Shown here: in pieces, positions 5,375 through 58,440 of the stretch | Layout of the letters: each line of letters begins with the position of its first letter | Numbering within the stretch: position 1 is the stretch's first letter | Assembly (NCBI GenBank): GCA_905160935.1 | Contig: CAJHZI010000476.1 | Span: 556,001-620,000, forward strand | Length of the DNA stretch: 64,000 nt | Origin: Enchytraeus crypticus | Taxonomy: Eukaryota > Annelida > Clitellata > Enchytraeida > Enchytraeidae | Direction: 5' to 3' | Notes under the pieces: generated by a model | The model's database searches: none | The model's input: the letters and a program-made list of their open reading frames with translations, nothing else | What the model was told of the DNA's origin: nothing | Program-made: the position numbers and the translations under genes

Positions 5375-8300
5375 TTATTTTCTGATGAGATGAGAAGGAA
5401 GGGGGGCGGGGGCAGCTAGCCCTAGTACAGGGGTGCCACTTCTACTGCCCCCCACGACCCCTAAACCTTGACCTCCCACCCCTCCCACACCCTGAGATAT
5501 GTTCTTAGAGCCAGACAGCTGCGCTAGAGGCGGACCAAACCGGCTGGAACCAGTTGACTGCTTTAAACCGCTCTGAAGCGGTTGAGCAGAAGTTGCAGGC
5601 TGCTCCACGTGACCAGGTATTAAAGCACTAACTCCTCCCTCTTGTTGAGTATTGTATATATTATAAGCCACGCCCAGGCTGGCCTGGGCTTGTTGACTAT
5701 TATAAGCCCCGCCCAGGCTAGCTTGTTGACTATTATAAGCCCCGCCCAGGCTGGCCTGAGCTTGTTGACTATTATAAGCCCCGCCCAGGCTAGCCTGTTG
5801 ATTGTCTCCATATTGATTGTTGTGAGAAATGAACCCGCTCAATGGCGGCGGCCCTACGCCGGACAAATGGCCCACAGGTAGTTTTCCAGTGCCGCTGAAC
5901 GACGGGGTACCTGCAGGAGTTGAAGCAATGCCGTAGAGTTCTCGCAGGATCATCAGCACGGTGTCTTCAGAGAGCCAGTAACAAGAGCGACTGCCCACAG
6001 CAAACAGGTAGTCGTTGAACATCTCTATCGGTTTCTCCTGCAGCACGTGGTCCACGCGTGAGCCTGCGTTGAGCCGGGCCGCTATCTGCCTCACCTCATC
6101 GACTGAGCCGCTCACGACATCAGCCGCTAAGTCACCGAGCACACTGTCCACGTCACCCAGCTCCGGCTCCTCCAGGTCCTGAGCATCAGCTCCTACACAT
6201 CAACCAGTAGAACAAAACAATCACATCATCATCTTCTATATAATCCCGGTTTACCTATGGTCAGGATATGAATAGATCCACTCCACTCATGTCTGCCTTT
6301 TGGTTTTAGAAATTACAGTACACATGAATCTAATACAGCACATGTGATGTGACGTCTACAGAACACATGTGATGTGTACAGAACACATACATGTGATGTG
6401 ACGTGTACAGAACACATACATGTGATGTGACGTGTACAGAACATACATTAAGTGACATGTACAGAACACATACATGTGATGTGACGTGTACAGAACACAC
6501 ATTAAGTGACATATACAGAGCACATACATGTGATGTGACATGTACAGAACACATACATGTGATGTGGCGTGTACAGAACACATACATGTGATGTGACGTG
6601 TACAGAACACACATTAAGTGACGTGTACAGAACACATACATGTGATGTGACGTGTACAGAACACACATTAAGTGACATGTACAGAACACATACATGTGAT
6701 GTGACGTGTACAGAACACACGTTAAGTGACATATACAGAACACATACATGTGATGTGACGTGTACAGAACACACATTAAGTGATGTGTACAGAGCACATG
6801 TGACGTGTACAGAACACATGTGATATGAAGTCTACAGAACACATACCTGTGATGTGACTTGCAGCAAATCCCGTCACGGCTTTCCAGGTTTTCCGCCAGG
6901 ACTCGAGTAGCTTCTGCTTCAGATCTGCTCCCACCCGCACCAAACCCTCTCTCAGCTCCAGGTGGAGCCGCTTGCGCCCCTTGTGGTGCGGCACCAGCAG
7001 AGCCTTGCTCGGTAGCTGCTCCCCAGCGAGCAGGAGCGGCTCAACGCGATACGCAGCAGGGTCGTAGGGGTGGAAGATGTTGTAGAACCTGCTGCAGGTC
7101 GGAAGAGCAAAGTCTGCGGTGAGCTTTGTTCTACGAAGAGACAAGAAGAGGGCCAGCGGTGAACCCAAGGCAAAAAATGCTGATGGAGAGAATAGCAGCG
7201 GTGGATAGGTTACGTTCGGCACGTCGATGCCGTTGTTAATTGGACAGGAATAGCCGCTGGAGTCATTTCCTAGCCTCGTGCTGACTCTGCCGTCCTGGTT
7301 ATTTTCATTTTGAGACGCTCGCTGCAGGAAATCCAACAATTTCTTTCTCGGACCCATAGGTAAGCCGAGCTCTTTAATATCGTCCGGCTTTAGCAGTTGC
7401 AGAGAATCCAAATCAATCTGTTCTCTATCAAACAGTTCTTCATACGTCGTTAAACCAAGCTGATTCAGCAGCTCATTCAACGATTCAAATCCTAAGTCTT
7501 TACCCGCTTTACCTTGATTCAACTCGAAACCAAACTGGTTACTAGTTTGAGCTGCCTTGAGTCCTCCACCAGTGGGGCTGCTGCCTTGATGAGAGAGCAG
7601 GTCAAACAGAATAAGAGCTCCTGATGAATGCCCCACTAGCGACACGCTGCCTCTAAACGAAGGATTTCTCTCCAGGAAGAGACTGTAGATTCTGTTGATC
7701 TCGGCTGCGACTGCGTCAACGATTGACTGGGCATGGGAGGGACTAGAGTAGAACAGTGCGTCTGACAGAGACTCGTTCCCAAATCCTCGCAGCTTGGAAA
7801 TCCCCGAGGGGGTAACCAACGACAGGGTATCCTCTGATTCCGCTATGGAACCAGAGATTCCGTTTCTGTAACATATTGAAAGAAATTCCGTTCTCGACAC
7901 AGACCCTGCGACTACATTGTCTTTGAAATGATCTTTCACCATCTGTCTCGCAACCGTTCTCATGTCGCTCACTAAATCCGTGGCGCCTCTGAACTTTCCT
8001 TCCCATCTCGCGGTGGCACCCAGACCTTGCACCACCAGGACGAGATGATCAGGTGGAGTCAGAGCTTCATCGTCGGGGACGTCCCTGTCCATGTCATCGA
8101 GTCCTCGTCTCAACGCTCGGGGTCTGCTATCGCTCAGAGTGTTACCCCATGCGTCAAGTTCTTCGCTCGAGCCTTCCGAGTCAGCAAAGTGAAGGATAAC
8201 ACTTGGACTGTGGATAACAATAGCTCCGCCTCCTGCAGAGAATTCAATCTTCTTGTGGAAATCTCCCGACATTAGCGTCCCAGCATAGTGGTCCTCCAGT

Positions 8301-9487
8301 ATCTGAGCTGCGAGTTCTTCGTATGGCTGGAAGCAGCTCTCACCGTGAGAACGGAAGAACCAGGAACACCGCCGAACTTCAGCGACGGGTTCTTCCCAGT
8401 AGATGGCCGTTCTGAGCCGCCTGCCCACGTCCACCTCGTATCTGCCGCCATCTACCTGCACCACACAGTCTCCATCCTCCATGACGCTGAGGTCAATGAG
8501 TGCAGAGTCGTGACGACTGAATGGCATCCAGACAGGCGCTGAGTCGCGAACGATATGATACATCCAGTGATATTTAACCGGCTCGTACGTGTACTGCTGG
8601 TTGTCAACAGTGATTGGTGTAGAAATGCTGGACGACTCCTTTGTCCCAGTCGGTGCTCTAATGTCCGTAGATCTCAAGTAAGTTTTATCAGACAATGGAT
8701 TGATAGGATTGATGGGATAGCCTTTAGCTGGTATTCCACTAGACGACGATGAGCTCATACCAAATGCTACAGGAGTGTGGGACACCTTGCCAGCAATACG
8801 ATAGGGATTCACCTGAGCGACTGACACAGGTTTTCCTGAATATGTCGACTGAATATGCGTAGCATTTTCTAAATTCAAACCAGCATTATAAGTTGTTGCT
8901 GCATTGCTGGTGTGTTGTAGCAGAGATACTGATGAGACTCCAGGCTGAAACTGGGTCATCATATTAGATGGCACTTGAGAATTTAATGTGGTAAATCCCG
9001 AAGCAGGCATTCCCTGCAGGGTATTTGCTGATGTGGAAAATCCAGATCCAGACGTAAATCCTGCATAGCCTACATTTTCAGACGAGGCCGGCAATTGGTC
9101 AAACGACTGACCAATAAAATTATCCGCTTCCGCTTCAACATCCAGCACAGGTGAGTCAGGTTTTGTAAAATCATCCAGCGGCACAGCTGCAGGCATTAAA
9201 CTGCTAATCTGAAGAACATCATTGTCAGAGATAGACGGGACTGCTAAGCTTAAATGGGAAGAATTTTCAGAGGAAAATGGTGATGATATCGGCCCTACGA
9301 CCCCCACCTGAGCAGAATGTCCACCAGGAGTAGGAGCTGACAGTGAAACAGTGGCAGGAAGAAGGGGTGATGGTGCAGCCAAACCTCCTATCAGAGGATT
9401 CGGAGAGGGTTGTGATAGTCCAGACAGCAGCGACGACTGTCCACTAACTCCACTAAGCAGACTGATGTCGTGTTTTTGGTTCGACAT
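5375..9487 (-). CDS. SEC23IP: SEC23IP/DDHD2-family phospholipase-like protein (two exons)
   Basis: Exons are 9487-6847 and 6192-5375 (donor CACAG|GTATGT, acceptor GTGTAG|GAGC), 1153 codons with stop. In the family this protein binds the COPII coat at ER exit sites. A Ser/Pro-rich N-terminus of about 300 residues, expected for SEC23IP and absent from short DDHD2 proteins, precedes a WWE-like region (about 300-435, with [10 protein letters not shown] and [15 protein letters not shown]). The lipase core has GHSSG (Ser about 621). A SAM domain (about 665-722, [10 protein letters not shown]) and a DDHD domain ([25 protein letters not shown], then [15 protein letters not shown] in exon 2) follow. 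Two oddities: the usual VVHGIG-type motif reads VVQGLG at about 485, and a Gly/Gln-rich tail extends past the DDHD end. The intron lies inside the DDHD domain. TTTGTAG just upstream of the ATG is a possible 5' UTR acceptor. SEC23IP is preferred over DDHD2 on the N-terminus, but an unduplicated ancestor of both is possible. Confidence 0.93.
5676..5815 (-). repeat. Coding minisatellite in the SEC23IP C-terminal tail
   Basis: Units of about 36-45 bp encode repeats of [11 protein letters not shown] with or without an extra AQ. About four units lie within the last coding exon and keep the frame. The peptide is low complexity and probably disordered. Confidence 0.85.
6310..6846 (-). repeat. Intronic minisatellite built from the SEC23IP exon 1 donor edge
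   Basis: The intron is filled with roughly 30-bp units that read, on the minus strand, CACATCACATGTATGTGTTC. The true junction is CACATCACAG|GTATGTGTTC, so each unit resembles the last exon bases plus the donor. In the decoys the final exon G is replaced by T, which should weaken them. About nine such units alternate with a variant carrying CACTTAATGTGTG. Confidence 0.85.
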
Positions 9488-9944
9488 ATTTTACTACAAA
9501 GCAGAGAAAATATACAACAGTGACTTCAGAAGACTATATAACGATTAGCATGAAGAATTTGTAGTTTTAAGTAGTTCTAACTAACCATATTTATAACAAA
9601 GTATAAAATACTAGAATAATTAACTTAATTAAGGAAATTGTATTACCGGTCTTTATTGTATAATTGTAAGCATTTTTATTTGCTTAAATGTTACATTTCA
9701 TTAGTGAAGAATATTAATTTGTATTTAAAACATCATTTTCTAAAAGAATATTAAAGTAAAATTAAGTAAAATTAGTTAAAAGCTCTTACGTTAATCTTAT
9801 AATTAATTATTCTTCACTACTATATTCAAGGAAATAATAAATAAAAATAGTACTTCATAGAATAGGATATATAGTTTTATGTGTGTATACGGTATGTATT
9901 TATACTTATACGTGTGCACACACAGTTATATATGCACATATGTG
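9488..9944. other. 5' flank of the SEC23IP gene
   Basis: AT-rich DNA, presumably the 5' UTR intron or promoter side of the minus-strand gene. No TATA box or initiator can be called with confidence. Confidence 0.4.
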
Positions 9945-9955
9945 TGTGTGTGAGA

Positions 9956-9992
<37 letters not shown>

Positions 9993-10035
9993 TGTGTGTG
10001 AGAGAGTGTGTTTGTGTGTGTGTGCGAATGTGCAG
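9945..10035. repeat. (TG)n microsatellite
   Basis: Interrupted TG/CA dinucleotide tract. Confidence 0.9.
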
Positions 10036-10555: not shown

Positions 10556-10614
10556 CAGTGCTTCCAACTGCAAGAAAAAAAAAATTATTGTATCAAGTAG
10601 TAATAAAAAACACG

Positions 10615-13912: not shown

Positions 13913-16900
13913 CGTTCAATCAATCAATCGATCAATCGATCAATCAATCAATCGATCAATCAATCAGTTAATCAATCATTCGTTCAATCAATCAAGCAAT
14001 ATATCAATCAATCATTCGTTCAATCAATCAATCAATGGCTCAATCAATCAATTGATCAATCAATCAATCGTTCAATCAGTGATTCAGTCAATCAATCATT
14101 CGTTCAATCAGTCAATCAATCAATTATTGATTCATTCGTTCAATCAACCAATCATTCGTTCAATCAGTCAATCAATTAGTCGATCATTCAGTCTATAAAT
14201 CATTCATCCAATCAATCATTCAATCAATCAATCTACAATTTATTCCAGCAGACAGTAATTTAACCCAGCAGTAAATCAATGAATTAAGCAGACAGTAATT
14301 TAGTCCAGCAGCAAATCAATCAATTAACCAGACAGTAATTTAATGAAGCAGTACACTAGTGAATCAGTAACACAAGTAACATTAGCAACAGAACATACCA
14401 CTGGATAGCCACCGCTAGGTGGAGGTATGGGATGAGTCTTCATGTCATACATGTAGTCACTGTAGAGACCCTGCTTGTAGATACAATACAATACAACACA
14501 ATACAATACAAGTCTTCATGTCATACATGTAGTCACTGTACAGACCCTGCATGTAATACAATACAATACAAGTCTTCATGTCATACATGTAGCCACTGTA
14601 CAGACCCTGCAAGTACTACAATACAATACAATACAAGTCTTCATGTCATACATGTAGTCACTGTACAGACCCTGCATGTAATACAATACAATACAACACG
14701 ATACAGTACACTACAATACAAGTTTCATGTCATACATGTAGTCACTGTACAGACCCTGCAAGTATTACAATACAATACAAGTCTTCATGTCATACATGTA
14801 GTCACTGTACAGACCCTGCATGTAATACAATACAATACCATAAAATACAATACAATACATTATATGGTCAACTGCAAAAACTATAGTGCTCAGACAATGA
14901 CAGCGCTGCCCTTCAGGTTGATCGACCAATCAGACTACTTCAGAAAAGAAACTAGAATTTAAATTCTTAATCAGTGGATCATATAAACCAAGGCGTAGCC
15001 TTTGAAAAGAGAGGCGCAGCTACACCTTACCAGATTCAACCATACAAAATACCTAAATGTGACTAACTCGTAGTTTATGCCAAAGTAAACTACGTTTAGT
15101 TTGACGTGTAAACTGCAGATTATGCCCTAGTGAATACGGTCATAAATGTATTAAGACACTATAATATGAACACAAAGTAAAGAATTTAATATGATTTAAA
15201 GACACCAAATTATGGTGTCAAAATAAATCTTGGAATTTACTTATTTATTAGAATTGATGATACAGCAAAAAGATATAACTTACACCATTAGAATAGTAGT
15301 CTTTTTCAGGTCTCCTACTGTCGTAACTACACAAGGTAACATACAACAGCTTCTACATACACTGTACAATATACACCAGAGTAAACAAAAGCTTTAGAAA
15401 TTATGTCTGATATCTACAGATTCTACACTACCAGTTAAATAATAATAATAACAACAATTAGAGTGCTACAGTCATCAATGACAACATTGAGCAGTATTGA
15501 GACAAAATCAAACGGCGAGCAAAAAGAAAGTCCAAAAAACGGTGCAAATTCCAAAATCCAGATAATTAATCAATCCAAAGTAAAGGGAATTGAAGAAAAG
15601 GAGGATTAAAGAAAAGGAGGAAAACATTATTAATACTATTACTATCATCGTTAAACACATTATTAGATGAAATGCTCATCCATGATAATATAGCTGAAAT
15701 GCTCATCCATGATAATATAGATGAAATGCTCATCCATGATAATATAGCTGAAATGCTCATCCATGATAATATAGATGAAATGCTCATACATGGTAATATA
15801 GATATCCATGGTAATATAAATAAAAAAACATTAGAGACCTTGAAGCAGTAAAGGTTAAGTAATTAACTTACTTTTAACAATTATATTAACTAAATTACTT
15901 AAATTAAAAAGCAATAAACTTATTTTAGATAAAGCTTCATACATGGGCTCGGCTGATACGCAGGTCGGTATTATGTCTGATTGTAAATCAGTATGTTTAT
16001 GGTTCAGATCTCATCCCGTCACTGACAAGCTTTTGCGACAGGAAACAGACGCTAAAAAGCTGGTAAACATTAATGTAAACGTCAGTTTCCTCACTCGAAG
16101 TGATGGGTGAGCCCAGGATTTGAACCCCGCACATACTGATCTGCGGTCAAATATCTTACCGACATCGCCACTGGCTCCAGCCAATAAACACAACTATAGC
16201 TAGCTATAGGCTATACTAACCCTCGCCTAGGACTTCTCTCCTCGTATCTAGGTGCTGTAGCAACAACAACAACAACGAGATGATAAATAACTATCGTTAT
16301 ACTCTTAACGAAAATATAACTCTAACGCTATCGGAGTGTCATAAAATTGGCCATTAGTAATAGTAAGCACTAACTAAAAGTAAATAAAATAAAGGAAAGC
16401 AGCCATTCAGTAACAGTGATACTTAATTAAGAAGCAGTTTTAGTTTAACTGTTATTAATACTGGAAATCAATAGAATAAACATACAAATATAGATACAGT
16501 GCTATCAATTAACCAATAGATAATATTGACCTATTAATTGAAATAGAAAGCCAACCAACGAAGTGATCAAATTGAAACCACTCTCTACAGTTATATGTCA
16601 ATCGATACATATATCAATCAATCAAATTAAAACCACTCCATAAAATCATATTTCAATCAATACATACAGCAATCAATCAAAATAAAACCATTCAAGACAA
16701 TCATATTTCAATCAATACATATATAGCTATCAAATGAAAACCATTCTATACAATCATATATCAATCAATCAAAATAAAACCACTCTATACAATCATATAT
16801 CAATGAATACATACAGCAATCAATCAAGTTAAAACCACTCTATACAATGCACACATAAATCAGTATGAAGCCTGCAATGGTTGCTCAGTGGTGTACTCAC

Positions 16901-19900: not shown

Positions 19901-22900
19901 AAACATTCATTAGATATTCTATTTATACTTCACTCGTATATATATAAGTTTAACTTAAATAACTGCTGCAATGATACTTTATATCTTAAATTATAACTTT
20001 TAATTGAAGTAGTAAATTTAATTTATTTTTTACTAAAAATATTTTTACTTTTGTACTAAAGGTTATAGTGAGAGGAATAGAAGTGACGTAATTTTAAACT
20101 GAAGAATAAGACGAAACTGCTTTACTACACCTATTAAACTGATTCTGATAATTAATTAATTATTAATTAATTAATTAATTAAGAAGATTAGCTCATTCTA
20201 ACTTTACCACAACACCACCGGTCGCTTCATTACTCCACACCCCCCTCAACTCTTCTTATTACAACATCGATATTTCTAGGATGCTACTCCTAGACAAAAT
20301 CTCACACTCTGCAAATGACTCGACGGAAGCAGATGAATGCAAAACTAAAGAGGAAGCTATCGCAGGCCGATATCTCTCCGCTGATAAGTGAATGCACAAC
20401 TAATCAGGAAGTTATCGTAGACCAATATCTCCGTGCTGATAACTACCTATCAACCAGGCTTCGTCTCCTCGCTCTCTCTGCAGCGGCCGCTTTCTCCTTG
20501 CTTGCAAAGTCCACCTTGTCGAGACCTCTCGTCTTCAGCGCCTCCTTCGACTTCTGGGATATGATAGACACGTCTATACGCTCGTCCGGCATAAACAGTC
20601 TACATAGCTCCTCCCCCGACAGTGGATCTATCTCCTATGAGCAACAACAAAAACAACATAGAGAGCATAGAGAGAGAATAAACAGTCTACATAGCTCCTC
20701 CCCCGACAGTGGATCTATCTCCTATGAGCAACAACAAAAACAACATAGAGAGCATAGAGAGAGAATAAACAGTCTACATAGCTCCTCACCCGACAGTGGA
20801 TCTATCTCCTACGAGCAACAACAACAACAACAACAACAACAACAGACGATCGTTGAGAGAGCGAGGGAACTATGCAGTGAATTTTAAGATAAAAGAGGAA
20901 AATACAATTTTAGATATAAATGTCTCATTAGCAAAATATATTCATTATATCAATATATATATCTTTTGCTTGTGGAAATACCCATAATTAACATAAAAGA
21001 AATACCCATAATTAAAATAAAAGAAATACCCATAATTAACATAAAAGAAATATCTATAATTACCAGTTACTCTCTTAAAGTACAGATGTTTAAGTAAAAA
21101 AGCTAATGTTAACGTCAGTTTCGTCACAATTCTTCGCTACACTTAATCTTCACTGATAGGTGAGACAAGTGAGCTAAATCAAATCAAGCTTACCTGTCCT
21201 AGCTTACCTGTCCATCACAACCTATCTTCACTGATAGGTGAGACAAGTGAGCTAAATCAAATCATGGACACCAGTCCTAGCCTACCCGTCCATCACGACC
21301 TATCTTCACTGATAGGTGAGACAAGTGAGCTAAATCAAATCATGGACACCAGTCCTAGCCTAATTGTCCATCACGACCTATCTTCACTGATAGGTGAGAC
21401 AAATGAGCCAAATCAAATCAAGCTTACCTGTCCATCACGCCCTATCTTCACTGACAGGTTGAAGTTCCACGTGTTACGTATGTGCACAGCTTTAGAAAAC
21501 GACAACTCAGTTCTGCAAACACAGTGTAAGAGCACATGTACATGTACACACATCAACACAGATAACTACACACAGACATCTACACACACACATCTACACA
21601 CAGACATCTACACACACACATCTACACACAGACATCTACACACACACATCTACATACAGACATCTACACACACATCTACACACAGACAACTACACACAGA
21701 CATCTACACACACATCTACACAGTGTGTAAGAGCACACGTACATCTAAACCACAGATAACTACAATTGTATATAATTAATTAATTAATTATAATTAATTA
21801 CTACTTAGTGCAATTGATTCACAAACATGTCTTGTTGTATGATAACTACAATACAAATAGCAGTGACTAGCGTCAGCTTAGTTTAGTTTCAGTTTAGTTT
21901 AGTTTCTCACCTTTATTTAGTTTCAGAGACCTACAGGGGATATAAAGGTGAACAGTGAGCGATGTTATTCAAAAAAGCATATGCATAAGACCTTGTTCAG
22001 TTAAATGTAGTAAATCATTAGTCTACAAGCTTAGACACACACAAAATATCTGATGAAACAAATAAATACCTAAGATCTCGATGATATTAATGGGTGAGAA
22101 ATGAAAAGTGGTATGCTATATAGAGTGAGGGTTAAAAAATATAGCACAAATACATGTTAGAAATAAGTGATACAAATACGTGTTAGAAATATGTGATACA
22201 AATATGTGTTAGAAATAAGTGATACAAATACGTGTTAGAAATATGTGATACAAATACATGTTAGAAATAAGTGATACAAATACGTGTTAGAAATATGAGA
22301 TACTAATACATGTTAGAAATATGTGATACGAATACATGTTAGAAATACATGATACAAATACATGTTAGAAATACGTGATACAAATACGTGTCAGAAATGA
22401 AGCAGTAGACAACACACACCTGTTAACCCAGTCTATTGTAAAGACTCCATTGAGAGCCCTAGCGGAAATACCCACGGGTAAAACCCAGCGTATAGGAGGG
22501 TGATTTTGGTCGGACAATGCTGCTATACGAGCAAACCCTGCACAAACAAGCACAGTGATACCATCATTCATGACAAAATCGAGCAATGTAATGAAGAATT
22601 AAAGTCCAGCAAACTTCAAGAATGAAGCCATCGGTAACACTGTATGCGGTCTTTGTATAAGCAGTCTCATCATGTGATGCTTTGGCATTTGTTGATGCAG
22701 AGTGTGCATGAGACGTCCCCGACATTGCCTTATAGGAGGAGCTTAGAGACTAACTTATTTAACAGTAATCCATTCACATGTTATATTCCTACAGACAGCT
22801 GACGATGGGTTGAAGCATTTGTAAGAACTTCTTTAAGACCACACATATAGAAGCCAGGCAACAACAACAGACACTAGGCATACACATGTCAATGATCAAA

Positions 22901-25900
22901 GCTGAGAACTGTAAAGAACTGACAAAGTCTATGACAGATATTGAAATCTACGGGGAAAAAAAGCTAAAACTGGTAAGCTAATGTTAACGACCAAGATTTG
23001 AACCCCGCACATACTGATCCACGGTTGAGTATCTAACCGACATCGCCACTGGCTCCAGCCAAAAAATTTAAATATTTAAAAAAACAAATAATAAAATACT
23101 AGCACAATATTTTCTCAGACGTAGCATTCAAGCAGACAAACCTTGAAACTTTCCGCTCTCTTTAACAGAGAAGATCAGAATAACATTGCTGCAGTTCTAC
23201 AACCAATCAATCAGTAAATCATTGAAGCTGAATCTTAATCAATCATCAATCAAATGACAGCATATTAAGTAATTAAGTCAATTACATATTCAACTAGCAA
23301 CATTTTCCAATCTGTTATCCAAAATATATAAGTTATACCTTTGTGAGATCACCTTTTGAATGAGCCATTTATAATGATTAGCCTCTCATCGCTTGTGCGT
23401 ATTTAGCTTGTTATTTGTTCAGTCCACATCGTATTTAAGACAAATGTTACTAGTCAGATAATTTAGTTTCAGAATGTCAAGTACCTACAAGTATGCCTAG
23501 CTGTAGATTCACATTTGAAAGGTACTCCATTTTAACCTAAATAACTCTCTCTCTCTCTCTCTCTCTTAGTGCACTGCCTACTGGCAGGTAGGTCCATGGT
23601 ACATAACACCCCCACCATCCCCCATCTTCCATTTTCCTCTTGATGTTCACAAACGACTGGATCTTTAAATCATGTATAACATTCCTTTGATAGATTTATA
23701 CCATTATTCTTGGGGATTCTGCTAAAGCTATTATTGACAACAGTTACAAATCAATCGATACCTTGAAGGCAGTATTAAGTCTGTTCTCATTGGCTGGTGG
23801 AGTTGACCACACCCCCTTCGCTTGGGCCAGGTCTACGTTCTCGTAGTTGTTGCTCTTGATGAGGAAGTACTTGGCGTCTCTGAACAGATACTTGATACGA
23901 GAGAGATACTCTCGTTGAGCCTCCGTCATGTGCCTACTCTCTCTCTCTCTCTCTCCCTCTCTCTCTCGCCGTCTCTCCTCACGATCAACTCGAACTGTCC
24001 GTCAATCCATTAATTAATCAATCAATTAATTCTTAAATCAATTTATTTGATAAATAGCTAAAGTAGCTAATGTTAATGTCAATTTCCTCACTCGAAAGCG
24101 ATGTCAGTGACGGGCAATCGGTAAAGTGATCAGTGATCAATAAACTAAGCAGTTATCAATTTAATCAGATGGTCAATAAATCAATCAGTCAATTAATCAA
24201 TCAATAAATTAAATTAATCGATTAGTTGATTGGTCGATCAACAACAACGTAAAAACCCTAAGAATAACATAATATCAAAGAAGGCAGCTAGGCAATGACT
24301 AGCTATAACAGTAAATGCAGCAGATAATGCAGGTTAACTTCAAAAGACTGGCTTGATCTAAAAGTGTCAAATAATTGAGCAAGACACATAAATGGCTCAT
24401 CACATCAATCAATCGGTTCACGAGACAGACCTCTGGGTGAAGGGGACTCGCTGGTCTTCCACTTGATGGGAGAGATCTTGGCTCTTCCTGTCTTCTCTTT
24501 CACTTCACTCGCCCCTCCCTCCTCTTTCTCATCTGTTATCAATCACAGTGGTGTGGAAAACTGATTAGTTCACAAAGCAACGCTACAAAACATAAAACGT
24601 CTGATAGAACAGGCATCACAGCTCAAGACTGTTAGGTATAGTCACATTAATTACCAATAAATATATAATAAATATATAGTAAATATATAATAAATATATA
24701 GTAAATATATAATAAATATATAATAAATATATAGTAAATATATAATAAATATATAATATATAGTAAATATATAATAAATATATAGTAAATATATAATAAA
24801 TATATAATAAATATATAATATATGTTTATATAACAATGAACATCATTACGTAAATCTGGTAAAGCTAATGTTAACGTCAGTTTCCTCACTCGAAAGCATA
24901 GTGACGGGCGTACCCAGGATTTGAACCCCGCACATACTGATCCATGGTCGAGTATCTTACGTAGAACAGGTTTGTAGAACAGTACCTGTATAACCTCCCT
25001 ACTTCAATAGCAACACATTCCATCATATCTCACTCTAATGTGAGGTCACGTTGGGCGAATTTCTACATCAAACCCTTCACACATTTCAAATAAAAAAGAC
25101 ACTAACACGGAAAACTTACTAACAAGGAAAACATACTCACAAGGAAAACATATTCATAAATATAAATTGTATATATTGATCAAGTGTATTAACTTACTGA
25201 AGATATAAATCAACTACGATGAAGTAACATATTAGGTTAATCAATGTTTATCTCAGAAGTTGCGAAAAGGAGCGCGTGAGCATAAATTTCTCGTGTAATC
25301 GTGCTTTACGACAGAGTACTTGAGTCATAAATTAACAAGTGTGACTACAAACCTTTTCTTTCCTTATTCTCTCCATCCTCACCCTCACTATTCTGAGCCT
25401 CGGACTCCACGTCTGAGCTGATAGAACCGTCCGACACATGACTGCCATCTGTTCTAGATCTATCACTGCGAGAGCCAGCGGCTAAATCTGCCGCCTCATC
25501 GTCTCTGTATCTCTCATTATCACTCACATCATCATCGTCGTTATCATTATAGTCGGGGCTGACGTCCTCGTCATCGTAATCCTGAGCATCATCATCATCT
25601 TCATTGTGCTCGTTGTCAGACTCATTGTTGAATTCTATCATCTCTTCAGAGGGCGCTGTAACATAACGGAACTCGTTTAGTGCATGTCACATGATATCAT
25701 CAGCAGATAGGGTAGCATATTAATAGTCTACGCATCGTACACTGGTACACACACTGAACGAAATAAAAAACTAATATAGAAATACACTTTGTTATATCTA
25801 ATATAGTGAAATACTAACAGTAGTTAGTAGTAGTGCTAGATATCATGATGGACACCTAACCTCCCTAGAGCACAGTCGCTACCATAAAAAAACGCATTAA

Positions 25901-27457
25901 AAGAACGTTTCACAAAGTACAGCATGAAAGATATAGTGCATCATATCGTTCCAGATAAAACACCTAATTTACTGTATAATGTAACAAAAGTTTGAATGAT
26001 CACAACTTTAAATCATGACTGACGACTCTTACAATATAATACAATGAAAGACAGAACGACAAAACTATGTAAGTGCTAGATATCATGATGGACACCTAAC
26101 CTCCCTTGAGCACGGCCTCTAACATCTCGGCCTCTCTCTGCATCAGTCTCTCCAGCTCTCTCTGTTTCTCCTCGTTCTCTCGCTCCAGCTTCCTCCGCTC
26201 GGCCGCCAGTCGCTCCAGGCTGTCCTCCATGCTGGTGGCATCTCTGCTCTTCTGTCGTCTAGGCTCTGCCTCCTTACGCTCCGTCGCAGAGTTCTCGGTG
26301 TCTACGTAAATACAACGCTACGTCTACTATACTGTCTCCAGTTTAACTTCTAGATAAATACAATGCTACATCTACTATACGGTCTCCAGTTTAACTTAAA
26401 TATCTCTATTGACACATTTAACTTAAATGTCTTTATTTACATTTAACTTAAATGTCTCTATTTACACTTAACATATATAAATACAGTTACATTTTGTCGC
26501 ATTATTGAGCAGAGTCCGCAATAAATTAAACGATGCACATGTATACAGAATATGATGCAAGAAGCGCAATATGATGCAAGCAGTTCATGCTACATGATGC
26601 AAGCAGTGCAATATGATGCGATCAGTGCATGCAATATGATGAAAGCAGTGCAATATGATTCGATCAGTGCAAGCAATATTTAATTCCATTTATCAGTGGA
26701 CAGGCTTTCTAGATTTTGAAAACTGCATCAGTTGAACTTCCATTTTATTCACCAGCTTGGATTTGTCTCAATAATGATCTTTGTCATCATGGACAATAAT
26801 AGCACTCTAATTGCTATATGTTAAAAGCTGATAATCAGCACAGAGATACCGTTATTGTTTTGTTGCTGAGAGTCTCCCTCTGGTGTCACAGTACTGAGGT
26901 CAGAGGTCGCCCCCGTTGACTCCTGGGTGGTGTCTAGATCAGCGCTGTCACCCATCGTCAGTATATCATCCAGCAGGTCGTGCTCGTTATCTGTCAACAT
27001 AGCAATGTATTGGTATGAGTACAACGATATATGTTAAGAATTCTACTATCTAACAAGTGCTTAATAACTGTCAACATTGTATTGAATAGATACGACTAGT
27101 CACTGCATAACAACGCTGTACATGATTTATCAAACAGACTTTTACAAATTAGATATTCAATGCTAACATACATATATATTAGAGAGTGCTTGATTAGGCA
27201 GCCCTAGGCGATCTCTGAATGTTACAGATTCGACATTTACTAAGTTCCGAGGACTACAATAAATGAGAATATGACATTAGTTGTCAGTTTGTAATTTGAT
27301 TGTGTCTAGGGTTATTTAAGTATCAAATGGTCCGAAGATTTTAGCAGTACTTAGCCTAGGTAGGTAGTAACATGAGCTTGTTTAGGTGTTACTAATAGTG
27401 CAATTAAATTCTATATTGAGTGATTAATGTAATTACAAACTTACCTTTTACTTCCAT
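13123..27457 (-). CDS. YTHDC1: YTHDC1, nuclear m6A reader (16 coding exons)
   Basis: Exons on the minus strand: 27457-27445, 26990-26850, 26301-26101, 25655-25353, 24532-24431, 23994-23762, 23196-23142, 22537-22420, 21512-21428, 20634-20447, 17112-16901, 16254-16221, 15326-15284, 14470-14399, 13873-13667, 13365-13123. All junctions are GT/AG, phases agree, and the total is 750 codons. In the family this nuclear protein binds m6A RNA and influences splicing and export. The N-terminus has the conserved DLLDDILT motif, a Glu/Arg coiled coil and an Asp/Glu-rich segment. The YTH domain (about 285-440) has FLIKSNN and both cage tryptophans, KGVW (about 316) and IRWVLP (about 367), spaced as in human. 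It continues through [18 protein letters not shown] and [13 protein letters not shown]. The C-terminus is Pro-rich, then Arg/Ser/Glu-rich. Internal exons of 34, 43, 55 and 72 nt are unusually small. Several introns carry tandem copies of the neighbouring exon edge. Confidence 0.93.
13440..13625. repeat. 51-bp direct repeats in a YTHDC1 intron
   Basis: A unit containing ACCATTCACGGCATATCAAT and AGTTTACTAATAGCACATCA is repeated about 3.5 times between the last two exons. Confidence 0.9.
13877..14240. repeat. (TCAA)n tract upstream of a YTHDC1 acceptor
   Basis: On the coding strand this is TTGATTGATTG running directly into the acceptor TTGTAG|GCACC of the exon at 13873. A longer period containing ATTCGTTCAATCA is superimposed. 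Confidence 0.9.
14484..14870 (-). repeat. Five decoy copies of a YTHDC1 exon start, with ATACA repeats
   Basis: On the coding strand each copy carries TGCAG|GGTCTGTACAGTGACT and on through ATGTATGACATGAAGACT. This is the acceptor and the first 39 or so bases of the exon at 14470-14399. The decoy junctions lie near 14543, 14603, 14668, 14752 and 14812, separated by ACAATACAATAC repeats. They lack the rest of the exon and its donor. Confidence 0.9.
15439..15610. mobile_element. Dispersed repeat, unclassified
   Basis: This shares order and wording (ATCAATGACAACATTGAGCA, GAGACAAAATCAAACGGCGAGCAAA broken into similar pieces, GTCCAAAA-ACGGTGCAAATTC) with 58795-58960. Weaker relatives lie near 48830 and 55235. 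It is a diverged interspersed family of unknown type. Confidence 0.5.
15655..15805. repeat. About 28-bp minisatellite
   Basis: Five units of GATGAAATGCTCATCCATG plus ATAATATA in a YTHDC1 intron. Confidence 0.9.
15945..16190. mobile_element. Two head-to-head SINE family A copies
   Basis: A diverged plus-strand copy (15945-16045) is followed by a better preserved minus-strand copy (16050-16190, with CCAGGATTTGAACCCCGCAC). Together they can form an intronic inverted pair. Confidence 0.6.
16575..16860. repeat. About 55-60 bp degenerate tandem repeats
   Basis: Units of ACCACTCTATACAATCATAT followed by ATCAATCAA-type sequence, about five copies, in the intron just downstream of the exon ending at 16901. 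Confidence 0.75.
17330..17570 (-). mobile_element. GA-tailed dispersed element, inverted copy
   Basis: Reverse-complement relative of 2470-2707: CTCTCTCTTAAGTGCACTGC at its 3' end and GGCTTCTGAGGTGGTTTCCC at the other. It lies inside a large YTHDC1 intron. Confidence 0.6.
17575..20180. other. Largest YTHDC1 intron, mostly unremarkable
   Basis: Besides a 31-bp minisatellite at 18790-18925 (ACTCCACCGGCACATTCCAG, about four units) and a small hairpin at about 17655-17690 (AACCTGCCAGG on both arms), I see no exon or RNA gene. The open frames at 18722-18948 and 19326-19996 show no conserved motif. Confidence 0.5.
20635..20850 (-). repeat. Two decoy copies of a YTH-domain exon start (87-bp unit)
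   Basis: The unit contains, on the coding strand, GCTCATAG|GAGATAGATCCA to about 40 bases into the exon ([14 protein letters not shown]) and then CAACAA/CTCTCTATG-type intron sequence. The real junction is at 20634/20635, with decoys near 20721 and 20808. The unit length is a multiple of three, which creates a long but spurious plus-strand open frame. Confidence 0.9.
20970..21065. repeat. 24-bp minisatellite
   Basis: About four units of AAATACCCATAATTAACATA plus AAAG in a YTHDC1 intron. A family A SINE fragment follows at 21095-21125. Confidence 0.9.
21148..21427 (-). repeat. 78-bp tandem copies of a YTHDC1 exon 3' edge and donor
   Basis: Each unit includes the end of the exon at 21512-21428 (coding-strand GATAGGTCGTGATGGAC) and the donor region. 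One decoy near 21210 keeps the intact GGACAG|GTAAGC; the two in between have changed (GGACGGGTAGGC, GGACAATTAGGC). The unit also carries CTCACCTATCAG, an acceptor-like stretch. Confidence 0.88.
21545..21725. repeat. CACATCTACACACAG minisatellite
   Basis: Interleaved 10-16 bp units of ACATCTACACACAGACATC in an intron. Confidence 0.85.
22140..22395. repeat. 28-bp minisatellite near a YTHDC1 donor
   Basis: About nine units of GATACAAATACGTGTTAGAA plus ATATGT, ending about 25 bp from the donor of the exon at 22537-22420. Confidence 0.9.
22960..23065 (-). mobile_element. SINE family A, internally deleted
   Basis: Contains ATTTGAACCCCGCACATACT and TCGCCACTGGCTCCAGCC, but lacks the GCTTTCGAGTGAGG segment. 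Confidence 0.7.
23545..23690 (-). mobile_element. LINE 3' tail copy
   Basis: (CT)n then TTAGTGCACTGCCTACTGGC and TTCCATTTTCCTCTTGATGT: the inverted 3' end of the LINE family seen at 28620. Confidence 0.7.
24045..24118 (-). mobile_element. SINE family A tail fragment
   Basis: TCACTCGAAAGCGATGTCAG and the AGCTAATGTTAA end remain; the tRNA-like head is missing. Confidence 0.6.
24650..24832. repeat. AT-rich minisatellite
   Basis: Tandem AATAAATATATAGTAAATAT units in a YTHDC1 intron. Confidence 0.9.
24850..24965 (-). mobile_element. SINE family A
   Basis: Nearly full copy with CAGGATTTGAACCCCGCACA. It is truncated at the A-box end near 24962. Confidence 0.72.
25830..25882 (-). repeat. Decoy copy of a YTHDC1 donor region
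   Basis: GCTAGATATCATGATGGACACCTAACCTCCCT here repeats 26075-26105, where the same words span the real donor (coding strand GGGAG|GTTAGG). The copy lies 241 bp further into the intron and includes a few diverged exon bases. Confidence 0.8.
26535..26680. repeat. About 19-27 bp degenerate minisatellite
   Basis: Repeats of GCAATATGATGCAAGCAGTG in the intron between the 26301 and 26850 exon borders. Confidence 0.8.
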
Positions 27458-31184: not shown

Positions 31185-45314
<14,130 letters not shown>

Positions 45315-50877: not shown

Positions 50878-50931
<54 letters not shown>

Positions 50932-50958: not shown

Positions 50959-50961
50959 ATG

Positions 50962-52172: not shown

Positions 52173-53951
52173 CTACAGGAAGTGCTCGATGTCTATTTCA
52201 AAGGCTGAACACGGCAAGGAGATCTCAAACTGTTCCAGTACCTCAGGATGAAGCACACCTAACTTACCAATCGGCTTATCGAGATGCCTGATCTCCGCAC
52301 ATCTTCCAGGGAAATAAGTCTCGTCTTCCGCTGCCTTGAGGGAATATTCTCCCACGGAGACCTCGAGCAGCTTCATCAGTCGATCCAGCAATCCGTGGAT
52401 GACCTCGAATCCCGGGCTCTTGTTATAGTAGACAGCACACATGTGACGCCTGTTAGACGAGCCCACGTCTCTCGTCGAATCCCGTCGCACGATGTCAGCG
52501 ATCTCGAAGAGCTTCAGTGGCAGAGGCATCTTCTTGTTGGACGCGATCGCCTTGAGCAGACCAGGGAGGAGCGTAGTACGAGCAACCTGGAACTCCAACG
52601 TCTTAGGATTGGATATGTGCACTGCACCGGTGTCCTCTATCTTCTTGCGCAGCTTGGTCGCGATGTCGTCCCTCGAGCACAGTGCGAAGGTCAGGCACTC
52701 GGTGAACCCTGCTGCAGCGATACTCTCGCGCAGCAGATCCGTCAGCTTGTTGATCGGCAGCTGCTGGGCGACGCAGTTGGTGTCAGAGATGACGCGGTTG
52801 ATTCGGTTGTATCCGTAGGCGATCGCAACATCTTCCATCACGTCGCAGGCGTGGATTACGTCGTGCCGAGTAGGAGGCACTTCCACCTCGATACGACTAC
52901 CCTTCCAGCTCTCTCCCTCGTTCACGTCCCCTCCCTTCACCTCCGCCGTGAGACACATTCGAGTCAAAAGCTTGGCAATGTTTTGAGCAGACTCGTTGAT
53001 GCCAATTCTCAGGTTAATATCAGACACGGGAATCTCCTCTTTCCTGTACTTCAGCTCTGGGTAGATTTTCTTTTCATTCGCGTACACAACCTCGACCTCT
53101 TCCGCTACGTGCGGTGTGGAGCAGTAACCGCTGAACATGGATACGATCGTGTCGAGAACTATGTTCGCCTTGTTGAGATCAGTCGCAGTGCACTCTATCA
53201 GCACGTTCTTTGTGTTCAGCGTGATCTTGGAGTGATTGCCGTTGATTATCGGAGGCATGGACAGAATGACTCCGTTCTTGTCCATGATGACGGGGTACAG
53301 AGGCTTGTCTCTGATGATGCCTAGGTACTGCTTGAGATGACTGTCAGTGGAGTAGAGAGTCATCAGCTCCTCCGCGCTCATTTCCTTTGTCTGGTTCAGC
53401 GCGACAAAACGTATGTCAGCCGGTCGCTGCGCGTCGTACGTGAAAGGACCCTGAATCGTGTCAAGGTCGTGAGTTCCTATGGCAACCAGTGACCTCTGAC
53501 GACCTATATTCTGATGGAGTTTGTCCTGAAGGTCGATGAAGCTCTTGTACCGATCTGCGGTAAAGGTAATGTTACGCAGAACGGCTGACACTACAAACGG
53601 TCTGACACCGGCGGTGGCTGGCTTAACAATCATCTGAAGCCGCTCAGCCGGCGTAATGGCTCTGAAGATCGGATGAGCCTTTTTCTGCTGGAACACGAGG
53701 ATCCCCTGCGTCAAACCCTCCAAACACAAGAGGTCATAGCGATTAGCCGGAACATCGATCTTAAAAATGACTGCCTCGGACCCACCGACAGCCTTGTCCG
53801 CACCTTGCTCCTTAGCGATCATCTCTTTCTCCGAAGTCACCTCATCCAGTTCTAGACCAAAGTCAAAGCAGAGGTCAGCGAACTCTTCCTCTGTGTACGA
53901 ACGTCCCAGAGCTGAGAACAACTCGTCTCTGTTCACTCCAACTGTAGGCAT
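52173..53951 (-). CDS. FARSB: Phenylalanine--tRNA ligase beta subunit, complete in one exon
   Basis: The 592-residue frame is full length for the eukaryotic cytosolic beta subunit (human about 589) and begins [20 protein letters not shown]. The subunit pairs with FARSA in an alpha2-beta2 enzyme that charges tRNA-Phe. Diagnostic blocks in order are [30 protein letters not shown], the [16 protein letters not shown] [36 protein letters not shown], the B5-type block [68 protein letters not shown], and the end [11 protein letters not shown] with [15 protein letters not shown]. There are no frameshifts or introns within the frame, although vertebrate FARSB has many. A CACAG just upstream of the ATG is a possible 5' UTR acceptor. 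A retrocopy that replaced the original, or intron loss, are both possible. Confidence 0.96.
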
Positions 53952-53989
53952 CGTTCACCTGTGCTCATTCATACAAAACAATGACTGTC

Positions 53990-54180
53990 CATGACAATAT
54001 CAAGCACTGAACAACTTGTCTCTGTTCACTCCAACTGCCGGCATAATTCACCTGTGCCCATACAAAACATTGTTCACCTGTTCATATACAAAACTCCAGT
54101 CCATGACAATATCTATTACTGAACAACTCCTCTAGGTTCACCTGTGCTCATACAAAACATTGACTGTCCATGACAATACC
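53990..54180 (-). repeat. Tandem copies of the FARSB start region
   Basis: On the coding strand the real edge is GAGCACAG|GTGAACGATGCCTA. Upstream, GGGCACAG|GTGAATTATGCCGG and further CAG|GTGAAC copies recur, with the shared TTTTGTATG and CATGGACAGTC sequences between. Related GTGAAC words continue to about 54240. Confidence 0.85.
54000..54044 (-). other. Possible uORF copied from the FARSB N-terminus
   Basis: The nearest upstream copy has its own ATG and encodes MPAVGVNRDKLFSA then a stop, clearly derived from the gene's own start [14 protein letters not shown]. If transcribed in the leader it would act as a 14-codon uORF. Transcription of this segment is not shown. Confidence 0.5.
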
Positions 54181-54244
54181 TACTAGCAATGTATAACTCT
54201 TCTCATTTTTAACCCGCCTATCGATATAGTTCACCTGTGCATAT

Positions 54245-55741
54245 ATTAAAAAAACAGTCTACATATCTAGGAAATGAATAAAGTGTTCACAAAAATTTTA
54301 TATCAAATACATGAATCTGTTACCAATTCACGAAAACCTTAACATTCTATACTGTAATTCTTTTGAAAGAATTTAATAATCCAAACATCACAATTAGTGT
54401 GCTACTGGTGTTCATAATATTATTACATCGACGAAGCTGAAGACGTTAATTGACGGAATACAGCCACAAGTATCAGAAATTTATCAACTACTTAATATCA
54501 ACCTAACTGGTTGCGTCAGGCATAAAATATTAGTTACTTTCAACATTCTATTGTTAATTAATATTTGAATATAGCTACATTTAGTAAAAATTACATATGT
54601 ATAGACTACTTAGGAAATTAGTATGATCAGACTTACAAAATTCTGTATAATGACTTGATAGTGAAAACTCCCGATGAATAAGTTTTACAGACTTCAATAT
54701 TCAAATAGCCACTAATATAGTCATTTATATTTTGATCATTATTTAGAAATTTAGTTACTAAACTCAGCTGATGCAACACAAAACGTGATGTTAACACGGG
54801 GATTCTCCTAACAGTTTTCAGTTATAATGTGACACAAGATATTTTGAAACATATTCAGTTTGAAAGAATTTGGCAAACCAAAGCTTAAACCTCGAAATGA
54901 TATGCAAATACTCTCGAGATGGGCTTGCAATGTAGTCTCGAAGACTGATTTTTAATGTGACAATGTGGAAATAATAGCTTAAACTTATAAATTGGTAGGC
55001 CTAATCAAAAAGAAGACATTAAATCTGACAAGTGGCCAGCACAAATTGATTAACGGAAGTCGCAACAGATATACTTACAGCTTGCGATCCTGAATGTCTC
55101 TTGTAAAATTAAAGATCAACTGAATTAAATATACATAATTTGGAAGCTGAAGACATTATGCATGCAGCTTATCGAAAATTTTGACAAAAGATAGTAGGGC
55201 ATTTAGTACACTTTTAATTAAAGAACCATCCACGTATAGTGCCACTGCTGTCCACGACACAACATTACAACATTGAGCACTGTTGAATCATACCCTATCG
55301 ATATGCAGCTAATTGAGTGTTAATATAAAATAGATTGCGCTAACCAGGGCTACGGAAAACCATGTTTGCAATCCAAAGGAAGGGTAGGCTATAGCCACAA
55401 AAAGATTGCGTATTTAATTATTACTAATTTATCATCTATATCTTTTGATGACAACAATATGCTATATGATGAATGGAGGCTCACATGTTGATCTTATGTA
55501 CGTTGAATGAATAATAAGATGTCGAACAGAAAAGCTTTAGCCATTTATGAACTTGTTTATGAAGAAGGAGAGGCTGATGATATGAATAAGAAGATGAGGT
55601 AGCGGTTGTGAAGAATTCCAGGAAAAGAATTTCAGATCTTTACTTACGTGGCGCAGTATGCAGGATCTCTTGGACAGTAAATTAATTAGAGAACCGGGTA
55701 ATATTATTCGAAAACTAATCTTCTGAAAACGGAATGTAAAG
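54245..55741. other. Intergenic, no gene recognised
   Basis: AT-rich DNA. The part at 55230-55290 is a weak relative of the 15439/58795 dispersed repeat. Confidence 0.45.
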
Positions 55742-55781
<40 letters not shown>

Positions 55782-55905
55782 AGTACACTAGCTGCCTACT
55801 GGCAAGTCGATGGTGCAAAACGCCTCCACTCTTCTCTGTCTTCCACTTTCCTCTTCATGTCCACATGTGTGTGGGTCTTTAAATCATCTAACATACCTAA
55901 TTGCG
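55742..55905 (-). mobile_element. LINE 3' tail copy
   Basis: (CT)n then CTTAGTACACTAGCTGCCTA, ACTCTTCTCTGTCTTCCACT and TTTAAATCATCTAACATACC: the inverted 3' end of the LINE at 28615. Confidence 0.75.
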
Positions 55906-56424
55906 GCTTGTCTTTGATTCTTTTTCCTTCCATTATATTTTCTATGACCTCCATTAATAGATCTTCCCCTAAAATATGTCCTATCCAACTCTTCTTCCTA
56001 TTTCTTAGTATATAGGCCTATATCAACTGTCTATCTGTACCAACTCCCTCCAGAACTCCTGTTCTTAGTCTATGGCAAAACTTTATCAATGAAGAACATA
56101 AAAGCTCGTATTTTACGTCGTTTGAAAAGAAATGATTGCTTTTCAAAATAGCATTAGCGGAAATTTTATGTTACACGTATAATACGTGTCAGCCAATATT
56201 TTTATAGAGATTACGCTGCATGTAACACGCCCGTAATCCTTCATTGAAAATTTCTTTTCTGACCCCACTCCTATTCTCAAAGCAATAACTTTCACGTTAT
56301 TAAAGATATTTAAACGAAATTTCTCTTTGATAGGTATAATTGGCTGCTGGTCAAGTACTGTAAATTTCAAGAACATCGGTCTACTGCTTACGACTATACT
56401 GTAAAAATAATGTAAAAATAATGT

Positions 56425-56427
<3 letters not shown>

Positions 56428-56502
<75 letters not shown>

Positions 56503-56506
56503 TATA
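56428..56506. repeat. (TA)n microsatellite
   Basis: About 36 TA dinucleotides. Confidence 0.95.
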
Positions 56507-56624
56507 CTGTGTTTTTTATAACTGATACCTCACATTATTAAAGAGAGAGAGAAAGAGAGAGAGAGAGATTTCTATTTGAATCAAAAATTGAGGACTGTTG
56601 TCAATAATTAAGATTTTTTAATAG

Positions 56625-56815
56625 CACATATTTAAACTGTTAGACAATTTAGACCATTTTCTGTAGGCTATAATCAGTCCAGTGAATGTCTGAGATTTTA
56701 CTCTCAGATCAGCGAGGCTTCGAACCCACAAGGGTTCAATTCACCTCAGTATCTGTCATTTACAGTAGTACTTCATGACGTTACCCCTACGCTGCAAAGA
56801 CATTCTAAGAAGTCC
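56625..56815 (-). mobile_element. SINE family B
   Basis: Inverted copy; the B box region reads GGCTTCGAACCC on the plus strand, and ATGACGTTACCCCTACGCTG is the A-box end. Confidence 0.72.
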
Positions 56816-57172
56816 TTAATCTAGGAAATATTTACTGCAAATGATTAATTTAACTGGTATCGCACATTTGCACCTGAATTTGTTTACTGATTTGGGACCC
56901 CATTATATACTCAACGATGTTTATGATCTTGCCCAGGACCGGTATCAGTGGAGACAGAAGGTAAAAGAGGCTGCTCTGGTGTCCACAAAGTGACGTTCCG
57001 CAGAGAAAAGGCGAAGAAGATATACTCAACGCCTGATTGCTTGATTGATGTTTGATTATTAATTCATTTATCGATTTACTGATGGATTGATAGCTTTATA
57101 TTTTCATTAATTGATTAGTTTACTGTATCATTAAGAGTTTCAGAACTTGTTTGCTATCACAGAGTCCAGAGA

Positions 57173-58294
57173 TCAACTCTGACGCTGTCCACAGCCGAAC
57201 AGTTTCTTGATGCCCTTCATGAAGTCACTCATGGCCCAGGCGTAGAGGGCAGGGTTCCAGGTAGAGTTGAGGTGAGACAGGATCACCGTTCCTTTTATGA
57301 ATCCATCGGACACCGGGCATGTCTTCTGGAACTCTCTACAGACGTACATGGTGAAGTTGAACGTATAGAGAGGGAACCAGGACAGGACAAAGAGTAGGAC
57401 AACCAGAGCGAGTCTCACAGCTGTACGTCCCTCAGAACTTCTCAGAGATTTCATTCCAGTGGAGCGGCTGGGCTGAGAGGTACGTTCTCTTGCTGGGTTA
57501 ACAAGAGGTGGTGTGGAAGAGCTGCCAGCTCTTAAGTTTTGTTCTCTATCTCTCTGGGTTGTTCCGTTCTGCCTCGCTTCACCAGTGTCTCTATTTGACT
57601 CCACTCTACTCGATGGAATGCACGGATTCGAAGGAATGCACGGATTCGGACTGGAAGCTTCACGTCTGGATACTCTGTGAATTAGAGTGGATAATCTTCT
57701 TCCAGGAATTAGAAATCCTCTGAAATGCTTCTGAGCGCCACGTAAAGCAGTCATCTCTCCGAACGCTTGAGTCCTGGACTCGGTTGTCGCTTCTTTCAAG
57801 TCATTCCCGTTTTGTTCCGGGGACGTTCGACAGAGGGCTGACCCTATCGTGGGTTCTATAGGACTGGCAGAGGACTCTTCAACCACTGCGCCACCGGACC
57901 CACTCTGTCCTGGTCCAATCCTGTTGCGTCCTACTGGCGACAGATGTGGATTCCCAGTGGAGTCCGCTAAAGTTGTTGATCCATTTGAATCCGACACCGG
58001 ATCACCCGAATCACTCATTGGACCCTGGATACCCACTGTCACTCCACTCGCCTGAAACAAAGTCTGCGTTGTTAACCCGTTAGGACCCTGCTTGATTCCG
58101 TTAGTACCTGGAGCAGATCCTGTCTGGAATCTGGAGGATGTGAATCCGGAGTCAGCTGCGGACTCTAGGATGTAGTCTCCATACAGAGCCAGTCCCTCCT
58201 CCACCGTGCAGGCTCTACTGGACTGAGGTGCCTGTCTACTCGCCATCGAACTGTTGCTGCTCACTGATATAGAGCACATGTGCGTGCGGCGTAC
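57173..58294 (-). CDS. Class A (rhodopsin-like) GPCR, terminal exon
   Basis: The exon starts at acceptor TGTTTCAG|GTACGCCGC and ends with QRQS and a stop, 374 codons. It encodes a very long third cytoplasmic loop (about 270 residues, Ser/Gly/Arg-rich). TM6 follows (LALVVLLFVLSWFPLYTFNF, with the FxxxWxP motif), then TM7 with NSTWNPALYAW (NPxxY), then a short tail MSDFMKGIKKLFGCG. TM1-TM5 must lie on upstream exons at higher coordinates, within 58.4-64 kb or beyond; I could not find them. The TM6/TM7 pattern fits amine- or adenosine-type receptors, but the ligand cannot be told. Confidence 0.88.
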   Translation of the reverse strand, partial: VRRTHMCSISVSSNSSMASRQAPQSSRACTVEEGLALYGDYILESAADSGFTSSRFQTGSAPGTNGIKQGPNGLTTQTLFQASGVTVGIQGPMSDSGDPVSDSNGSTTLADSTGNPHLSPVGRNRIGPGQSGSGGAVVEESSASPIEPTIGSALCRTSPEQNGNDLKEATTESRTQAFGEMTALRGAQKHFRGFLIPGRRLSTLIHRVSRREASSPNPCIPSNPCIPSSRVESNRDTGEARQNGTTQRDREQNLRAGSSSTPPLVNPARERTSQPSRSTGMKSLRSSEGRTAVRLALVVLLFVLSWFPLYTFNFTMYVCREFQKTCPVSDGFIKGTVILSHLNSTWNPALYAWAMSDFMKGIKKLFGCGQRQS

Positions 58295-58440
58295 CTGAAA
58301 CAAGCGTATTGTAGAGACATTATTAATCAAAATACCTGATGCAAGCGTATTGTAGAGACATTATTAATCAAAATACCTAAAGTAAGCGTATTGTAGAGAC
58401 ATTATTAATCAAAATACCTAAAGTAAGCGTATTTTAAAGA
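58295..58440 (-). repeat. 42-bp tandem repeats carrying the GPCR acceptor
   Basis: On the coding strand units read GTATTTTGATTAATAATGTC, TCTACAATACGCTT and an end of ACTTTAG, GCATCAG or GTTTCAG, followed again by GTA. Each of about four units therefore starts GT and ends AG. The one nearest the exon is the real acceptor. Confidence 0.9.

Follow-up and report, generated by a model that had tools for sequence, protein, structure and literature searches.

Tandem repeats across exon edges in Enchytraeus crypticus, with a moderate bias towards 3' splice sites

In a 64,000-nucleotide (nt) stretch of the genome of the annelid Enchytraeus crypticus (contig C383, positions 556001-620000; hereafter the window), and in genes elsewhere in the same assembly, tandem repeats run across exon-intron borders and leave copies of splice sites, together with adjoining exon bases, inside the introns. 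We consider it likely, with a probability of roughly 0.72, that these are minisatellites of the kind called 'mirages' in amphioxus, that they arise by ordinary tandem duplication for which intron 3' ends are warm zones, and that splicing copes with them by context. Donors are crossed at the chance level, acceptors at about twice the matched null, and arrays end at acceptors more often than expected; a preference for borders is therefore supported for 3' splice sites only, and not as a general border bias.

An edge was counted as crossed when a repeat covered 8 nt on each side of it (8+8 nt, the main criterion; looser settings included 6+6 nt), and the null was matched by taking every intron-interior point as a pseudo-edge, provided that its pseudo-exon side was free of arrays. 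The set of 90 introns comprised 20 from the window (PI4KB 11, YTHDC1 8, SEC23IP 1) and 70 from genes outside it (CLTC 28, XPO1 19, CPT2 12, STIP1 9, ACTB 2), the latter genes chosen for conservation, regardless of repeats. Over the whole set at 8 nt, acceptors were crossed in 15 of 90 cases against a pooled null of 8.8% (P = 0.011), and donors in 6 of 90 against the same null (P = 0.81). The outside genes gave 11 of 70 acceptors against a null of 5.9% (P = 0.0024), a 2.7-fold excess (bootstrap 1.4-4.1), and a single donor of 70 against the same null (P = 0.985), with a Fisher P of 0.0045 for acceptors versus donors. The three other settings pointed in the same direction as the 8-nt one, all-gene donors at 6 nt standing at 9 of 90 against 9.6%. 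The initial annotation of the window had suggested a process by which duplications preferentially span exon borders, to be checked against chance overlap; measured against matched points, this suggestion holds for acceptors, and fails both for donors, which are crossed no more than chance, and in the window taken alone, which shows no excess.

The matched null replaced an earlier, unmatched comparison, in which the ratio of edge to interior crossing was 0.57. The conclusion that edges are crossed less than intron interiors was dropped as misleading, because interior points count each copy of an array and an edge only one. Neutral simulations at four rates, with four repeats each, returned ratios of 0.18, 0.36, 0.29 and 0.26 at interior levels of 0.06-0.15 (0.21 observed), and it was these low simulated ratios that led to the matched null.

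The positions of array ends were analysed for 85 non-microsatellite arrays of period 15 or more found by Tandem Repeats Finder (TRF). Fourteen of them abutted an acceptor, that is, ended in the stretch from 20 nt upstream of it to 4 nt downstream, where 2.3 were expected from the interior density and 3.7 from random re-placement in the same introns (P = 5e-5, the floor of the procedure). By re-placement, acceptor crossing was likewise in excess (12 observed, 5.6 expected, P = 0.007) and donor crossing was not (4 observed, 5.6 expected, P = 0.83); the outside genes alone had 10 abutted acceptors against 2.8 expected and 9 crossed against 4.0. From -30 to -3, introns contain 44% T and 23% G, compared with 37% and 19% inside introns. 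As separate observations on this zone, the polypyrimidine tracts of the 90 introns are TG-rich rather than CT-rich, with only 9% C, and at 10 nt ahead of the acceptor microsatellites reach a density of 30%, compared with 8-18% deeper in the intron (71 introns). An unlikely but tangible alternative is that the 3' splice site itself anchors tandem duplication in this genome: a mechanism tied to the zone of branch point, polypyrimidine tract and AG would seed the arrays, and introns would grow largely by copying their own 3' ends, for example through transcription-coupled slippage or through repair templated by intron RNA ending at the acceptor.

Several results weigh against the combination of ordinary duplication and a warm 3' end that we prefer. 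The 20 window introns alone lack an acceptor-crossing excess, with donors at 5 of 20 and acceptors at 4 of 20 against a null of 19.6% (8 nt), none of the four settings being significant, and over all 90 introns the difference between acceptors and donors reaches a Fisher P of 0.061 at 8 nt and 0.27 at 6 nt. CPT2, STIP1 and ACTB by themselves show no significant pile-up (2 observed, 0.8 expected). Donors too are abutted, by 7 arrays, where 2.7 were expected from the interior density (P = 0.021) and 3.7 from re-placement (P = 0.076); the 3' bias is therefore not absolute. Intronic array ends fall near acceptor-like AGs in 21 of 56 cases (38%), compared with 32% of random points, which leaves such AGs unsupported as general array-end sites: array ends are hardly nearer to them, and acceptor-like sequence alone is thus no explanation. 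Microsatellite-seeded breakpoints are equally unsupported (3 of 17 against 14.5%). The acceptor excess, finally, is based on 90 introns of eight genes; the bias, which is mainly to the 3' splice site and moderate in size, calls for a larger sample.

The lack of excess for either edge type in the window, donor crossing at chance in all sets and the acceptor-donor P value over 90 introns are what would be seen if very many intronic minisatellites simply existed, some of them reaching over edges with no effect of the edge. Pure chance of this sort seems doubtful to us, given that acceptors are both crossed and abutted more often than three different nulls predict, including in the genes chosen blind to repeats. 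Conversely, active copying over both kinds of exon border would fit the many cases within one window, the crossing of both ends of one intron (CLTC intron 10 and PI4KB intron 9) and the slight excess of array starts at donors, and is nevertheless very improbable in view of the donor counts over all genes and in the outside genes. Selection might instead remove donor duplications, because donor copies disturb splicing more, and tolerate acceptor copies. Donor crossing in the outside genes does tend to lie below expectation, both against the matched null and by re-placement (2 versus 4.0, P ≤ 0.21), but the latter deficit is non-significant, donor copies keep their GT (see below) and the pile-up of non-crossing arrays at the acceptor stays unexplained, all of which makes us rate selection as rather unlikely.

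Ordinary duplication with a warm 3' end would proceed by slippage or unequal exchange in a genome rich in intronic tandem arrays. Where a duplicated unit spanned an exon edge by chance, one copy would stay functional in the exon, and the others, each with a splice signal and an exon fragment, would become intron. Donor edges would be crossed at the rate of matched intron points, while the intron 3' end would be a warmer zone at which arrays stop at or pass the acceptor some 2-4 times as often as chance. Splicing would then pick the real site by context, most likely through exon definition.

The pattern is not special to the window. With the 8+8 nt criterion, repeats cross 21 of the 180 edges: 9 of the window's 40, and 12 of 140 (70 introns) elsewhere, in CLTC, XPO1, CPT2 and STIP1. 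Edge-spanning repeats thus occur in seven of the eight genes with tested introns, ACTB with its two introns having none, and the affected genes are spread over contigs C383, C189 and C446. Arrays as such are abundant: TRF arrays of any period make up 19.6% of a 284-kb region around the window (13.4% at period 20 or more) and 15.4% of the CLTC region, and arrays with a period of at least 10 occur in 51 of 71 introns.

The sequence analysed is a single assembly of 524.19 Mb in 802 contigs. Genes outside the window were modelled with a purpose-written protein-to-genome spliced aligner, which gave 29 exons for CLTC (contig C189) and 20 for XPO1 (contig C446); CPT2, STIP1 and ACTB lie on C383. YTHDC1 was modelled partly by alignment, and YTHDC1, PI4KB and SEC23IP also by reading the sequence. 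The set leaves out two 5' exons of CPT2, whose support was weak, and two very small STIP1 exons; the models of TRAF3 and TTPA were too weak and were left out as well. PRPF8, EEF2, SF3B1 and, in part, POLR2B were likewise located, and do not belong to the set. For the first 71 introns, which include those of PI4KB, YTHDC1 and SEC23IP (XPO1 was added later), the spliced models keep a stop-free reading frame, and exon 10 of PI4KB finds PI4KB chains in PDB; the modelled window genes are sound. Tandem arrays are reported to be error-prone in assemblies generally (PMC6868369), yet the copies differ by point changes and spacing, arrays occur at many loci, and the published E. crypticus assembly (525.2 Mb, 910 scaffolds, a version not identical to the sequence analysed) is described as PacBio-based (PMC8460440). 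An assembly artefact is accordingly hardly credible.

If the copied edges were used, most would disrupt the reading frame. In the 71 introns modelled before XPO1, at 6+6 nt, GT is kept in 26 of 27 donor copies and AG in 45 of 50 acceptor copies; with neighbouring bases in the copies 94% identical, selective loss of decoy signals is not seen. At 8+8 nt, use of 59 of 64 intact decoys would lead to a stop or a frameshift. The five frame-harmless ones are one PI4KB intron 2 donor and four donors of CLTC intron 10 (C189 near 882215), where copies at +45, +90, +135 and +180 are all in frame and stop-free, so that their use could lengthen clathrin heavy chain by 15-60 residues. The same CLTC intron also holds acceptor copies. 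The rows of decoys that the initial annotation had proposed are thus present at the sequence level, and we infer that the spliceosome ignores them. Because GT and AG are intact in the copies, correct splicing would have to rest on context, by which real sites and copies are presumably told apart; exon definition is the most likely filter, since a copied edge has no partner splice site at exon distance.

Within the window, direct reading of the sequence and ungapped self-alignment with microsatellites masked were applied to the junctions that had been listed as duplicated (Table 1). Copies with clear exon sequence are present at 11 of the 13 splice edges, identities being about 81-100% across 20-160 nt. 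A repeat likewise covers the FARSB start region; PI4KB 34692 and the acceptor of a G-protein-coupled receptor (GPCR) gene at 58294 turned out weak. The edges at 14470, FARSB and GPCR lie outside the 90-intron test because their partner edges were not modelled.

Table 1. Edge-spanning and edge-adjoining repeats in the window (window positions; a caret marks the exon-intron border)
Feature	Position	Strand	Repeat
SEC23IP donor edge and intronic array	6340..6847	-	29/54-bp units repeat ...CACATCACA(T)^GTATGTG
YTHDC1 acceptor edge and upstream copies	14435..14859	-	first exon base 14470
YTHDC1 acceptor edge 20634	20591..20832	-	2.8 copies of an 87-bp unit that takes in 44 exon nt
YTHDC1 donor edge 21428 and 78-bp units in next intron	21146..21459	-	
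YTHDC1 donor edge 26101 and single copy 240 bp downstream	25832..26113	-	42 nt at 98%
PI4KB donor edge 34151	34131..34273	+	34-bp unit, 4.2 copies, 21 exon nt
PI4KB donor edge 34692, weak	34690..34993	+	adjoins ATCA-rich repeats
PI4KB donor edge 36404	36395..36860	+	copies of GATCAGAGAG^GTAGGCTTGT at +146, +245; 10 exon nt
PI4KB acceptor edge 38992	38892..39040	+	75-bp unit x2, 49 exon nt
PI4KB donor edge 39832	39767..39991	+	124-bp unit including 66 nt of exon; copied at +124
PI4KB acceptor edge 43382 and upstream units	40681..43470	+	about 23 units of 113 bp (acceptor and exon 5' part)
PI4KB acceptor edge 45012	44833..45021	+	55-bp unit, 3.4 copies, 10 exon nt
FARSB start region	53916..54061	-	53-bp repeat, 93 bp apart, 89% identity
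GPCR acceptor 58294, weak	58292..58440	-	41-bp intronic array ends at acceptor; only 3 exon nt in unit

The most striking case is the PI4KB acceptor at 43382, for which TRF gives 22.7 units of 113 bp; 20 copies could be aligned, 18 of them with AG intact, and three of the aligned copies carry 58-89 exon nt. The acceptor at 45012 keeps AG in one of its two aligned copies, and splicing to the copied acceptor of 38992, which puts the exon start at 38917, would run into an in-frame stop. The PI4KB array at 36404 is largely a dispersed element. As for the weak PI4KB donor at 34692, its one copy lies 278 bp off and reads GC for GT, and the edge is crossed only at a 5-6 nt criterion. In YTHDC1, each of five aligned copies at 14470 includes 32-36 exon nt and the acceptor (95-97% identity), and both copies at 20634 keep AG. 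The YTHDC1 donor at 21428 shares 32 exon nt and only 7 intron nt with its copies (90-92% identity), one base short of 8+8 nt, and that at 26101, with 13 exon nt in the copy, is not strictly tandem because its sole copy is distant. The SEC23IP donor (last exon base 6847) shares 12 exon nt with nine copies, which read CACAT^GT where the real edge reads CACAG^GT. The FARSB repeat contains the inferred start codon at 53951, and is a start region rather than a demonstrated splice edge.

Some further features were recorded. The last coding exon of SEC23IP holds 39/72-bp tandem repeats (window 5659-5801); arrays are therefore found within coding sequence too. The core of the dispersed element, AGTGCACTGCCTACTGGCAGGTCCATG, has 23 matches in 284 kb (at most 3 errors), six of them within the PI4KB intron 5 array; its sites include window 36419-36860, 28770 and 12770, and others elsewhere. 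An 18-mer, AGCCCAGGATTTGAACCC, has 45 matches in the 284 kb of C383:446001-730000 (at most 3 mismatches); it looks akin to the transfer RNA B box and is probably a short interspersed element (SINE). An OTU-domain deubiquitinase-like gene (L014 1333-3656) extends over at least two open reading frames (ORFs), the first just below the Pfam cut-off. Six of the ten scanned ORFs of the contig have a Pfam match, and a sequence search found no PDB match for a 63-amino-acid ORF.

That no such repeats had been described before, as first thought, does not hold. Two amphioxus papers define mirages as tandem repeats over exon-intron boundaries, in Adh3 and the globin genes BflGb6 and BflGb9 (PMC3087553), with troponin C and PGBD5 as further cases (PMC3902484). 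In these reports units span the 5' or the 3' exon edge and measure 10 to about 160 bp, and the copies are intronic, many with AG or GT intact (PMC3087553, PMC3902484); haplotypes vary in copy number, and Adh3 is somatically unstable (PMC3087553). Here too, repeat units cross exon-intron boundaries (21 of 180 modelled edges), both boundary types are affected (6 donors and 15 acceptors of 90 each) and many copies, not all, keep their AG or GT. With every sequence-level mark tested found, we regard the repeats as the same kind as mirages. The differences are that amphioxus has a few cephalochordate loci, whereas here seven of eight genes of an annelid are affected, with up to about 23 copies, and a 3'-splice-site bias is measured. 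Normal splicing is indicated in amphioxus by reverse transcription polymerase chain reaction (RT-PCR; PMC3087553); the check made here was of the reading frames of the spliced models. The host is neither a cephalochordate nor a sponge: its COI is 94% identical to Lumbriculus variegatus, Mesenchytraeus and a cluster of Enchytraeidae (among the best 120 of 7663 matches). Among the best 120 of 5984 matches for FARSB, and among 15 for SEC23IP, there was no close relative with a name.

Intronic variable number tandem repeats and minisatellites involve the same DNA change and unit sizes, and a splice junction is not a necessary part of them. Introns can also be gained when a segment with AGGT is duplicated in tandem, as reported for the potato RNA-dependent RNA polymerase (RdRp) gene (PMC4974935), which likewise copies splice signals by duplication within a gene; there, however, the duplication is tied to a new intron, whereas here existing introns gain decoys. 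Among open-licence papers, we found no genome-wide survey of edge-spanning repeats and no annelid case.

The new elements are the phylum, how often acceptors are affected (one in six among 90), the numbers of copies and the bias to acceptors. In this soil worm, which serves as a model in ecotoxicology, nature would pose puzzles to splicing, in which real sites stand beside up to 18 intact copies, and the choice of the right splice site becomes directly testable in such introns. Mirages would thereby cease to be a peculiarity of amphioxus and become a measurable influence on the introns of another phylum, with a bias to the acceptor side.

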